64,000 nt of DNA, taken from NCBI GenBank assembly GCA_003210775.1, contig QCUI01000003.1:1-64000 (forward strand). The letters run 5' to 3'. Position numbers and translations under genes: made by a program. Each line of letters starts with the position of its first letter. Positions within the stretch are counted from its first letter, which is position 1. This stretch comes from Synechococcus sp. AG-679-A04. GTDB taxonomy: Bacteria > Cyanobacteriota > Cyanobacteriia > PCC-6307 > Cyanobiaceae. This document shows positions 26,145 to 31,744 of this stretch, piece by piece. Below the pieces are notes generated by a model. It saw nothing but the letters and a program-made list of their open reading frames with translations, ran no database searches and was not told the DNA's origin.

Positions 26145-27908
26145 TCAGAATATGAAAGTGGTTCGAAGGACTGCACCAAACTGATTGAATGATCCGTCAG
26201 AACCTTGCTTACCAAGGTAGGTCAACTGACCCAGAGGACGACTCAGATAAAATACAGATGGAGTGACAGTAATGTTATCTGTAACTTGGAAGCCGTAATA
26301 AGCCTCCATAACATAGTTTCCATCCTGGGGAGTTTCTCCCCCCTTCAATGAGGTAGCGAAAGTCGGCTGACCAACTGCTACGCCAATGGTATTGCCTTGC
26401 AGGAAAGCATCATCCCAGTGAAGGGCAACTTGCCATGACTGAGACGTTGAAACAATGCCGTCGGGAGAACCGTCAGTATCATTCAGAGTGTTGATACCCC
26501 AGCCTGCGCTAATAGCAGGAATCCAACCTGTCTCTTCGGGTTGCCAGTAACCCGAAAGAGCGAATGCATTGAGTGAACTATCGCTCAATGAGTCGCTGAC
26601 AAGATAACTAAGCTGAGTAAAAGCAGTCGAGTAAGGAACCAACTCGGCATCCTGCAAGTAGGAATAAACACCAGCAATACCCCACTGCTCTGCTTGATAG
26701 CCAACCTGGAATGTACCTACACCAGCGGAGGCATCCGTAGCGATTCCACCCTTGGTTGGATTGCCATTCATGCCATTCCCAGAAACGTACTGTAAGCCAG
26801 CAACGAATCCATTATTTTCGTAGTTGAGTGCAGCACCAGGACCTTGGGTTTTGTTGTAAGCACCAGGCGCACCGTTGAGTGTCAACACATCAAGAACAGT
26901 GTTGCCATCTCCGGAGGGATAAACAGATGGCCACATTGGCATCATGTCGTCCTGGCCAACGTTGGCACCGACAACAATGTTGAAACTGCTTCCAATCGGA
27001 GCTGTATAGAAGATCTTATCGATATAAATCGAATCACTGCTGCCGGTGCCATCCAAGGAATCTGAGGCGACCTCGAGAGTCGAGAGAGAAGAAGGAGCGC
27101 CAAAGAATGCTGTACTACCGAAATTGCCAGCTCGGAGAGTGGTCGTCAACAGATCCTTACCAGTAAAACTGGTATTTAAAATGATCTGCGTGTCATAGTT
27201 AAAAGTTGTGGCACCATACTCTCTATTCTCATAGTCTTGAGCATTATCACCACTAACAAATAGACTAGCGATAGAAGCATCGCTTAACGGTGTATTCTCA
27301 AAAATACTGTCGTCGGGTTTTTTAGCGAACTCATTAATCTGAGTTGCAGTCAGACCTAAGCCGTATACGTCGTTAAGGCCTTTCAGATCGTATTCATTCA
27401 GGTCTCCACCAAAAGTGTTAGCACCAAGAACGAAACTCGCCTGACCTTCAAGGGTTGTGGTAGTGGAGAACTGGGTTGCTTCCAGTTCGCCAACACGAGC
27501 TTCCAGACCGTCAACGCGGCCCTTAACGATGGCGAGTTCCTTTTCGAACTCCTTCATCAGGCGCTTGAGCTCGTCGGTCACTTCGGTGACGCGGTCGAGA
27601 CAGGCGTTCAACAGTGCCGCCGCTTCAAAGCGGGTCATCGCACGGTTGCCGCGATAGGTGCCGTTGGGATAACCAGCAACACAGCCGTAGCGCTCGATCA
27701 GGTTGCTGAGTGCCTGATAAGCCCAGTCGGTCGGGTAAACGTCGGAGAACTGACTGATGCTGGTGACTTGCTCAGCCGCAACCACGTCCTGGGACACGGA
27801 GGCGTAGTCGGAAACACCGGCAACATTGACTTCAGTAGCACCTGCAACCATCGGAGCTAGAAGGCCCAGAGCAGCAGGAGCAACCAGCAGTTGCTTGAAT
27901 AATTTCAT
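26145..27908 (-). CDS. Outer-membrane porin with S-layer-homology domain (SomA/OprB type)
   Basis: A 587-residue precursor. After a signal peptide (about residues 1-25, ending VAGATEV) comes an SLH domain near 50-100 (FSDVYPTDWAYQALSNLIERYGC, with RAMTRFEAAALLNACLD), which binds pyruvylated wall polymer. A coiled coil (VTDELKRLMKEFEKELAIVKG) follows, then a large beta-barrel with alternating aromatic strands and a C-terminal phenylalanine (RTTFIF). This layout is typical of cyanobacterial porins that pass small ions and solutes. The ATG at 27908 has a GAGGAA ribosome-binding site; a GTG at 27920 is not needed. It ends with a clear terminator and is monocistronic. Confidence 0.92.
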   Translation of the reverse strand: MKLFKQLLVAPAALGLLAPMVAGATEVNVAGVSDYASVSQDVVAAEQVTSISQFSDVYPTDWAYQALSNLIERYGCVAGYPNGTYRGNRAMTRFEAAALLNACLDRVTEVTDELKRLMKEFEKELAIVKGRVDGLEARVGELEATQFSTTTTLEGQASFVLGANTFGGDLNEYDLKGLNDVYGLGLTATQINEFAKKPDDSIFENTPLSDASIASLFVSGDNAQDYENREYGATTFNYDTQIILNTSFTGKDLLTTTLRAGNFGSTAFFGAPSSLSTLEVASDSLDGTGSSDSIYIDKIFYTAPIGSSFNIVVGANVGQDDMMPMWPSVYPSGDGNTVLDVLTLNGAPGAYNKTQGPGAALNYENNGFVAGLQYVSGNGMNGNPTKGGIATDASAGVGTFQVGYQAEQWGIAGVYSYLQDAELVPYSTAFTQLSYLVSDSLSDSSLNAFALSGYWQPEETGWIPAISAGWGINTLNDTDGSPDGIVSTSQSWQVALHWDDAFLQGNTIGVAVGQPTFATSLKGGETPQDGNYVMEAYYGFQVTDNITVTPSVFYLSRPLGQLTYLGKQGSDGSFNQFGAVLRTTFIF

Positions 27909-27913
27909 TGAGT

Positions 27914-27922
27914 TCCTCACAC
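27914..27922 (-). promoter_or_regulatory. Candidate Yfr1 small-RNA target at the porin ribosome-binding site
   Basis: The porin mRNA reads GGTGTGAGGAACTC just before its ATG. GTGTGAGGA is exactly complementary to nine bases of the ACUCCUCACAC core of Yfr1, the cyanobacterial small RNA that in Prochlorococcus blocks translation of porin mRNAs. The match covers the Shine-Dalgarno sequence. No Yfr1 gene was seen in this window. Confidence 0.55.
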
Positions 27923-28071
27923 CAAATAAGAGGAATGCAAACTATAAGGTTAATTAATTCGAAAGCAATAACCGATCAAAGCAAGGGTATCAAATGGCCA
28001 ACAAATATGATCAAATAAAGTCAAACAATCACGAGATTCGCTAGAAAGTCGATTGTAAGAACTCTGCTCTT

Positions 28072-29596: not shown

Positions 29597-29857
29597 ATGA
29601 ACCTAAGTGATTTAGCAGTTCATCATTCAGCAACAGTTGTTGGTGTAAGCAGTGATGGAAGCGACCTGAGCAATTCCTTTAAGGACCGTTTAGAAGCAAT
29701 GGGCATCAGAAAAGGCAGAACTGTTCAAGTCATGCGCAAAGCTCCTGGTGGAGACCCTTATGAAGTGAGAGTTGGAAGCACAACTGAGATTGCAATAAGA
29801 AAATCAGAGGCAGCTCTGGTTGAGATCAAAGATGTCTCAGATCTCAAGAAAATCTGA
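29597..29857 (+). CDS. feoA: Ferrous iron transport protein A
   Basis: An 86-residue FeoA with the SH3-like core: LEAMGIRKGRTVQVMRKAPGGDPYEVRVGSTTEIAIRKSEAALVEI. FeoA is a small cytoplasmic partner needed for FeoB-mediated Fe2+ uptake. It is 42 bases upstream of feoB on the same strand. An obvious Fur box was not found by eye in the 254 bases upstream. Confidence 0.92.
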   Translation: MNLSDLAVHHSATVVGVSSDGSDLSNSFKDRLEAMGIRKGRTVQVMRKAPGGDPYEVRVGSTTEIAIRKSEAALVEIKDVSDLKKI

Positions 29858-29899
29858 CCATTCCTTTCATTTCAAACCAACCAGTCCTGGAACTTAACA

Positions 29900-31744
29900 A
29901 TGATCACTGCAGAAGCCGGCAAAACAACGCAGTCAAAAAACGAATTACCTAGGATCGTTTTCATAGGCCAGCCAAACACAGGCAAATCAACATTTTTCAA
30001 TCGTGTCACCAATGCCACTGCAGGAGTTGCTAATTGGCCTGGCTTGACAGTTGATTTCATGCAGGCAAAGGTTGAACGTGATGGTAAAACCATCGAATTT
30101 GTGGATCTACCAGGAATCTACGATTTAGACGGTTTCACAGAAGATGAAAAGGTTGTTCAGGATTTTCTGGAAAACTATAGCTTTGATTTAATTGTTTGTG
30201 TCGTTAATGCTTCTCAAATTGACAGGCAAATATTATTGCCACTGCAATTAAAAAAGCTTGGCATACCAAGTCTAGTAGCCTTAAACATGGCTGATGAAGT
30301 AAAAAGATTTGGTGTAAAAATCAATACTCAGAAATTGTCTCAGTTTCTTGAGATGCCCGTTTTTACAATCAGTGCAAAATACGGTGCTGGCTGCAGTCTG
30401 GCAATCGATGGAATCTGGAAAACAGTCAATGACATCACTGATTCTTATAAAGTTTCGGAGTTAGTAAGTTTTTGCAGAGAGAATAAAATTACAGACGAAG
30501 AAATCCAGGAATCTCTAGATCAAGGGATAGAAATGCCGCCAGAAAATCTGGTGACATTTACTAACCGAATGGACGCAGTTCTATTGCATCCAATCTTCGG
30601 TTTGCCAATCTTTTTCTTGACCATGTTGGCCCTATTCCTATTTATATGGAATGTGGGCATGCCGGCTCAGGATCCCGTCGGTGATTTCACTGATTGGTTG
30701 CAAGCAACCGTCTTAGAGCCAGGATTGAGCTTCCTACCAGACATCGTCAAAGATTTCGTAATTAATGGTCCCTATACGGGATTTGCATCGTTGCTTGGGT
30801 TTGTGCCACTTGTTGCCTTCTTCTTTGTAGTGATGACGGCTCTTGAAGACAGTGGTTATCTCTCGAGAGCTGCATATCTGATGGATAACATTATGCGCAA
30901 GGCTGGTCTTGATGGGCGTGGATTCGTGATGCAGCTGTTCGGTTTTGGATGCAATGTTCCTGCAATTATGGGAACACGAACAATTCGTTCACGTAGTCAG
31001 AGATTGCTTTCAATACTTGTTATCCCCTTCGCATTATGTTCTGCAAGATTACAGGTATTCGTATTTTTTCTTGGGATTATCTTGCCTAGTTACTTAGGCG
31101 CTGTCGCACTGTGGCTTCTTTACATCATCAGCTTTGTTGTTGCTTTTGTGATGGCAGCAATTTTCAATGCTAGTGGGCAATTTAAATCAAAAGATCCGTT
31201 CGTCATTGAACTTCCTCCATATAGAACTCCAACTTTCAAGCAAGTTGCATTAAATGTATGGAGCGAGATGAGGACGTTTGTTCAGAAGCTGTCTATCTTC
31301 ATGATTATCGGTACAACGATTACTTGGTTCCTTACTAATTACCCAGGTGGATCAGAAGGATTGAACACTTATGCAGGCCAAATCGGAACCTTCTTCCAAC
31401 CGTTGATGGCTCCTTTAGGTGTTAACCCCCTACTAACTGTTTCACTCATAATCGGCTTCGTGGCTAAAGAGGTTCAGTTGGCGGCTGTTGCGACAATGTA
31501 TGGATTGGGTGAAGGCAGCGATGCACTCAAGACAACATTGGGAGGTGCGATTAACTTCCAACAGGGATTCAGTTACTGCCTATTCAGTCTTCTCTATGTG
31601 CCATGCTTAACGACGGTAGCTACGATCTGGGGTGAAACGAAGTCGGCCAGATTTACACTCTTTTCCGTTGCTGTATCAATGATCGTTGCTTGGGTTGTGG
31701 CTTTTGGATTCTACCAATCGTACAATTTGATTTTCACTTCTTGA
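29900..31744 (+). CDS. feoB: Ferrous iron transporter FeoB
   Basis: A 614-residue inner-membrane Fe2+ transporter, the shorter cyanobacterial form compared with about 770 in E. coli. The G domain has G1 GQPNTGKST, G2 near VANWPGLTVD, G3 DLPGIYDL and G4 NMAD. The membrane part begins around residue 230 and includes two related gate regions with FGFGCNVPAIMGTRT and IIGFVAKEVQLAAVATM, whose cysteine and surrounding residues line the iron path. Codon usage is AT-rich, as in the rest of this island. Confidence 0.95.
   Translation: MITAEAGKTTQSKNELPRIVFIGQPNTGKSTFFNRVTNATAGVANWPGLTVDFMQAKVERDGKTIEFVDLPGIYDLDGFTEDEKVVQDFLENYSFDLIVCVVNASQIDRQILLPLQLKKLGIPSLVALNMADEVKRFGVKINTQKLSQFLEMPVFTISAKYGAGCSLAIDGIWKTVNDITDSYKVSELVSFCRENKITDEEIQESLDQGIEMPPENLVTFTNRMDAVLLHPIFGLPIFFLTMLALFLFIWNVGMPAQDPVGDFTDWLQATVLEPGLSFLPDIVKDFVINGPYTGFASLLGFVPLVAFFFVVMTALEDSGYLSRAAYLMDNIMRKAGLDGRGFVMQLFGFGCNVPAIMGTRTIRSRSQRLLSILVIPFALCSARLQVFVFFLGIILPSYLGAVALWLLYIISFVVAFVMAAIFNASGQFKSKDPFVIELPPYRTPTFKQVALNVWSEMRTFVQKLSIFMIIGTTITWFLTNYPGGSEGLNTYAGQIGTFFQPLMAPLGVNPLLTVSLIIGFVAKEVQLAAVATMYGLGEGSDALKTTLGGAINFQQGFSYCLFSLLYVPCLTTVATIWGETKSARFTLFSVAVSMIVAWVVAFGFYQSYNLIFTS

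Follow-up and report, generated by a model that had tools for sequence, protein, structure and literature searches.

A conserved site complementary to the small RNA Yfr1 overlaps the Shine-Dalgarno sequence of a porin mRNA in marine Synechococcus

The stretch of DNA analysed here (64,000 nucleotides from Synechococcus sp. AG-679-A04, hereafter the window) carries on its minus strand a porin gene (26145..27908) whose ATG lies at 27908-27906. The open reading frame encodes 587 amino acids, and the Pfam matches of its product (OprB, 54.4 bits; SLH, 40.9 bits) indicate that it combines an SLH domain with an OprB-type barrel. On the minus strand the start region reads TTTGGTGTGAGGAACTCA-ATG, in which GGTGTGAGGA occupies 27923..27914. 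The mRNA 5' of the ATG is UUUGGUGUGAGGAACUCA, and its segment GGUGUGAGGA (27914..27923, minus strand) includes the Shine-Dalgarno sequence GAGGA (27914..27918, minus strand), which is followed by a five-base spacer. The first-pass annotation of this DNA had proposed that a match to the core of the small RNA Yfr1 overlaps the porin Shine-Dalgarno sequence, and we confirm that GGTGTGAGGA spans GAGGA. The range assigned to it (27909-27923) is correct, yet it takes in the spacer, and the match is perfect as claimed but consists of ten contiguous Watson-Crick pairs with the organism's own Yfr1 rather than nine.

Further upstream on the minus strand, UUCCUC (27930..27935) is the possible 5' arm of a leader hairpin, as the predicted fold pairs it with GAGGAA at 27918-27913. 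A TATAGT noticed by eye (27941..27946, minus strand) is a weak candidate for a -10 element, from which the leader would be about 28 nt long; a promoter scan reported no promoter for the porin, and this TATAGT is absent from its list. The ferrous iron uptake genes feoA and feoB are encoded on the opposite strand (29597-31744), some 1.7 kb upstream of the porin. Three contigs of this draft genome end within porin genes (C13 and C92 at their starts, C68 at its end), and the porin set of the draft is therefore incomplete.

The Rfam model for Yfr1 (RF01116) finds one copy in this genome, at C50:11906-11962, with a score of 66.4 bits against a gathering score of 38. Its neighbours are an IMP-dehydrogenase-family gene (IMPDH, 167.7 bits) and a thioredoxin gene (Thioredoxin, 119.4 bits), and yfr1 is described at the same guaB/trxA place in all nine marine Synechococcus examined in an earlier study (PMC2190773). 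The first-pass annotation had expected yfr1 between guaB and trxA and had regarded its absence from the genome as grounds for abandoning the proposal; the gene is present, and at the expected place. In the predicted fold, the core ACUCCUCACAC is unpaired between two stem-loops. Ten contiguous pairs with the mRNA site are possible because the Yfr1 core reads ACUCCUCACACC, that is, the core followed by CC.

RNA-RNA interaction prediction bears out the proposed pairing. RNAcofold joins Yfr1 and the porin leader in a ten-pair duplex that keeps both Yfr1 stems, with a net gain of 12.6 kcal/mol over both RNAs folded alone, and no shuffled core out of 200 equals the real one in its pairing with the window porin. 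Energy alone does not single out the porin, as it ranks second of 56 window genes when duplexes are computed with the unpaired core and 44th of 55 when full-length Yfr1 is used without an accessibility term. We set the latter ranking aside as uninformative, given that long stem-opening duplexes dominate it. The Yfr1 core is invariant among the sequences compared, so that compensatory evolution cannot be seen. The phage collection that we searched yielded no Yfr1-like stretch.

The word GTGTGAGGA is not rare, since 17 copies are found in the 2.28 Mb draft against about 17 expected from base composition (4^9), and the backwards pattern occurs 11 times. Two of the 17 copies lie directly before a recognisable gene start, and both of these genes are porins (the one in the window and one at C68:9014 that is cut by a contig end). 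The rarity thus lies in the position of GTGTGAGGA before porin starts, not in the word itself. GAGG occurs within 24 nt upstream of 11 of the window's 56 crude gene calls, and GTGTGAGG upstream of the porin only. A larger set of 294 crude calls, many of them from orthologous regions and hence not all independent, was drawn from the window and 88 fetched loci with each locus's target stretch left out; GAGG is upstream of 52 of these genes and GTGTGAGG of one, which is the window porin.

It might be argued that GTGTGAGG is merely an extended or strong Shine-Dalgarno sequence of highly expressed porins, with no role for a small RNA. The usual anti-Shine-Dalgarno sequence is CACCTCC, with which the GTGT that lies 5' of GAGG would not pair. 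This GTGT is missing from the other 51 genes that have GAGG, and GTGTGAGG is an exact complement of the sRNA core. Furthermore, when 120 distinct leaders are compared with GAGG as the anchor (GAGG itself hardly varies), the GTGT before it retains 1.4-1.9 bits per position, with at most 0.90 bits further upstream; because GTGT is conserved, a plain Shine-Dalgarno sequence does not explain the site. Even though GAGG is a Shine-Dalgarno sequence and the MED4 porins are described as highly expressed (PMC3898218), we consider this explanation very improbable.

Conservation at porin starts is extensive. Within the genus (28 genomes, 83 porin N-termini aligned from residue 1, with later-starting rows such as L121-L126 left out), GTGTGAGG is found no more than 24 nt from the start codon in 73 of the 83 cases. 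The pattern GTGTGAGGA-N(2-9)-ATG occurs at 95 places in the genus genomes, including five sites that are counted twice via two ATGs, and 49 of these places are at the 83 porin starts; the reversed control gives 8. Outside the genus, we chose 30 of 272 family genomes (18 with Yfr1 and 12 of the 17 without it), of which 27 gave a porin start. The site is present at 48 of the 63 starts from these genomes, two of which (L168 and L169 in G089) were misplaced by one codon and scored as lacking it, and at 37 of the 45 starts that come from Yfr1-bearing genomes. At least one site is found in all 26 genus genomes with a porin start and in 25 of the 27 other family genomes.

Prochlorococcus porins show the same element. 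It precedes 21 of the 22 porin starts that we collected from this group (21 read among 30 loci, plus L267), four of which are already among the 45 above, and it is present in all 11 of the named Prochlorococcus contigs that hold a porin start; that set excludes L250, which lacks a start, and does not include MED4. The N-terminus of the window porin finds Prochlorococcus porins by sequence, and one of these finds the porins of G154, a genome of 1,657,990 bp that we take to be Prochlorococcus MED4. Both porin starts read in G154 carry GTGTGAGG just before the ATG, in agreement with the published status of PMM1119 and PMM1121 as validated MED4 targets. By these sequence matches, the window porin is related to known Yfr1 porin targets. 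Elsewhere in Prochlorococcus, two neighbouring porins (L243 580-3099) have differing N-termini and an identical stretch of 326 C-terminal residues, which suggests gene conversion.

Another explanation for the conserved element would be that a transcription factor recognises it as DNA, or that it is merely inherited through recent duplication of the porins. These genes are indeed duplicated, and their leaders are partly related within the genus. However, conservation of the flanking leader has fallen almost to background whereas the eight bases are retained, and the distance from the site to the start codon holds at 11-17 nt across 18 genera. We regard this explanation as extremely unlikely.

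The mechanism that we favour begins with Yfr1, and probably also Yfr10-like sRNAs that carry the same core, which would use UCCUCACACC to pair with the porin mRNA at GGUGUGAGGA. The resulting ten-base duplex over the Shine-Dalgarno sequence would block ribosome entry, so that less porin would be made. RNAs of the Cyano-1 family, which we take to be the Yfr2 family, would compete for the core by means of their GTGAGGAG and thereby relieve repression. We put the probability that the porin mRNA site is a Yfr1 target site that operates in this manner at nearly nine in ten. What we observe directly is the complementarity, the presence of the sRNA genes, the overlap of the site with the Shine-Dalgarno sequence and its conservation. 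Richter et al. 2010 is said to be the original paper on Yfr1 targets in MED4. The MED4 som porin genes PMM1119 and PMM1121 are reported as validated Yfr1 targets (PMC3142192), as the first-pass annotation had rightly stated in naming Yfr1 a repressor of Prochlorococcus porin mRNAs, and the PMM1121 leader is repressed 4.7-fold by Yfr1 in an Escherichia coli reporter and relieved by Yfr2 (PMC6778093). Likewise, an E. coli assay showed that Yfr1 represses Nostoc alr0834, a homologue of the MED4 porin targets (PMC6974561). We infer, by analogy with this repression and relief on homologous porins, that the same control would apply in the present organism.

The site is thus very probably a further case of the already known Yfr1 control of porins. 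The suggestion that Yfr1 control is extended here is right insofar as another lineage is involved, but the kind of gene is not new, given that both MED4 som and Nostoc alr0834 are porins. Our search of the literature on Yfr1, Yfr10 and porins, in which subscription journals were thinly covered, found no published report of the site at marine Synechococcus porins. The MED4 som genes resemble the present case in the sRNA core and in being porins, whereas the window porin differs in its ten pairs, its SLH domain and a leader able to form a CCUC/GAGG hairpin. For two HL-type Prochlorococcus porins of G136, a Pfam search at an E-value of 0.001 gave no family match, be it to SLH, OprB or any other. 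Nostoc PCC 7120 differs in being a distant filamentous lineage in which Yfr1 also acts on peptidoglycan genes.

A further possibility is that the abundant porin mRNAs serve mainly as a sponge for Yfr1 and Yfr10-like sRNAs, and that the porin itself is not what is ultimately regulated. The porin copies keep the site together, with at least one in each of the 26 genus genomes that have a porin start, and the PMM1121 mRNA is reported to be among the longest-lived in MED4 (PMC2897979). Nevertheless, the site falls on the Shine-Dalgarno sequence, so pairing should also block translation, and the reporter repression of a homologue is a direct effect (PMC6778093). We therefore think it improbable that the sponge function predominates.

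Yfr1 is not the only core-bearing sequence in this genome. Four further CTCCTCACACC stretches lie between a 5' stem and a terminator (C23:9904, C23:18771, C43:16778 and C46:12761), and a fifth occurrence of the core, at C28:3123, is without this frame. The four are candidate Yfr10-like sRNAs, as judged from their sequence, and when all four were tested on the porin leader, two had predicted gains (12.6 and 13.0 kcal/mol) similar to that of Yfr1. Three of them (C23:18771, C43:16778 and C46:12761, near position 1500 of L007, L012 and L014) lie 107-111 nt from the 5' end of a Cyano-1 RNA on the opposite strand. A Glutamine-II riboswitch (L012 2186-2246) lies near one of these Cyano-1 loci.

The same arrangement recurs across the genus. 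The core occurs 115 times in the 28 genomes against 15 for the reversed control, with about one copy per genome being Yfr1. Thirty-two of the 115 cores are no more than 400 nt upstream of a Cyano-1 match, all 32 on the opposite strand and 30 of them at 104-112 nt, and this divergent layout is found in 13 of the 28 genomes and for 30 of 101 Cyano-1 matches. The Cyano-1 sequences in our analysis carry the target-like GTGAGGAG near their 5' end, plus GGAAACA. In MED4, by contrast, Yfr10, Yfr12 and Yfr18 adjoin Yfr2, Yfr4 and Yfr5 in tandem on the same strand; there, too, a core-bearing sRNA (in Yfr12 the core is mutated) is described as adjoining an RNA whose 5' end may pair with the core (PMC2518516). 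Moreover, the core of the four Yfr10-like stretches is located between the 5' stem and the terminator, as it is in Yfr1, whereas the core of MED4 Yfr10 is in a loop (PMC6778093). Since other sRNA-like genes share the core, Yfr1 need not be the sole regulator.

Genomes in which Yfr1 is not recognisable provide a natural experiment on this matter. Under strict filters, RF01116 is found in 255 of the 272 family genomes, and 12 of the 17 that lack it belong to three genera. The less expected result is the persistence of most sites in these organisms: 11 of 18 porin starts still have GTGTGAGG within 24 nt, with most sites retained in two of the three genera (5 of 6 in one, 4 of 5 in another) and most lost in the third (2 of 7 remaining). 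We therefore reject the notion that loss of Yfr1 simply erases the sites, and Yfr1 alone does not maintain them. Retention does differ between Yfr1-bearing and Yfr1-less genomes (110 of 128 versus 11 of 18; Fisher p 0.016), although this value ignores kinship and the difference comes mostly from one genus.

What might occupy the sites in these genomes is suggested by stretches that resemble the Yfr10-like candidates. The word CTCCTCACAC is present in all 17 Yfr1-less genomes but is no commoner than its reversed control (52 copies versus 51), and hence is uninformative on its own. By eye, however, in an inspection that covered 30 of the 52 sites, the core is followed by a terminator-like hairpin and at least four T residues in 10 of the 17 genomes, so the seed appears to outlive Yfr1 in many of them. 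In G103, a Yfr1-like stretch that the RF01116 model missed lies before trxA. The publication of a Yfr10 from Prochlorococcus SS120 is in line with a seed that outlives Yfr1 (PMC6778093). Four genomes of a single Yfr1-less genus (near 1501 in L207, L218, L219 and L220) have in common a conserved stretch in which a hairpin and a T run come after CTCCTCACAC; it is perhaps an unnamed sRNA.

These observations raise the question of whether Yfr10-like sRNAs, mostly located beside Cyano-1, are the main regulators, with Yfr1 able to pair but mattering less. The four additional stem-and-terminator stretches, two with a Yfr1-like gain, and the persistence of sites in Yfr1-less genomes, 10 of 17 of which have the core with a hairpin and T run, speak for such a division of labour. 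Against this, the stretches are known here as sequence only, CTCCTCACAC matches its reversed control in frequency, and the reporter work with MED4 used Yfr1 (PMC6778093). We consider a minor role for Yfr1 possible, but somewhat unlikely.

If Yfr1 does act on the porin mRNA, then the structure of the leader might tune its access. Among 110 distinct GTGTGAGG leaders, CCTC appears no more than 20 nt upstream in 41, where mononucleotide shuffles that ignore kinship give 14 on average, and in 30 of these 41 the CCTC is 11-13 nt from GAGG, a distance at which CCUC and GAGG can pair. The window porin leader is of this kind (UUCCUC..GAGGAA). The RNA immediately upstream folds with unusual stability (z < -1.5) in 45 of the other 69 leaders, often as a GC hairpin whose sequence varies; the same is true for 16 of the 41 CCTC leaders. 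These predictions, uncorrected for kinship, thus sort porin leaders into two architectures, one of which could hide the Shine-Dalgarno sequence. In the window porin leader, the predicted probability that GAGG is unpaired is at most 0.02, and the hairpin would sequester the site's 3' half, which counts against the Yfr1 reading. Conversely, GUGU is predicted to be more open on average than GAGG, so that pairing could begin at the exposed first half of the site; this openness is seen in both kinds of leader and so does not single out the hairpin class.

We tentatively raise the broader possibility that the porins of marine Synechococcus form one post-transcriptional regulon, in which Yfr1 and the Yfr10-like sRNAs share a seed, divergent Cyano-1 RNAs act as sponges, leader hairpins tune access and selection acts on the seed. 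The hairpins would be either CCUC..GAGG structures over the Shine-Dalgarno sequence or GC hairpins just 5' of the site, and most Yfr10-like genes would be paired divergently, each with its own Cyano-1 sponge. Because most sites survive the loss of Yfr1, selection would be keeping the seed and not any single sRNA. If true, the porins of an abundant marine cyanobacterial group would be under the control of one conserved RNA seed, at an outer membrane that governs entry into the cell.

The recurrent sequence GTGTGAGGAACATG was considered as a second conserved target and rejected, as its copies among L018, L059, L064, L067, L078 and L081 are antisense to or run across one gene, presumably infC; five copies were fully listed for this check, and L059 and L081 have other longest frames. 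Finally, in four porin copies (L087, L109, L119 and L166) a terminator-like leader (CTCTGGG..TTTTTT) replaces the Yfr1 site, and these are perhaps silent or differently controlled copies.
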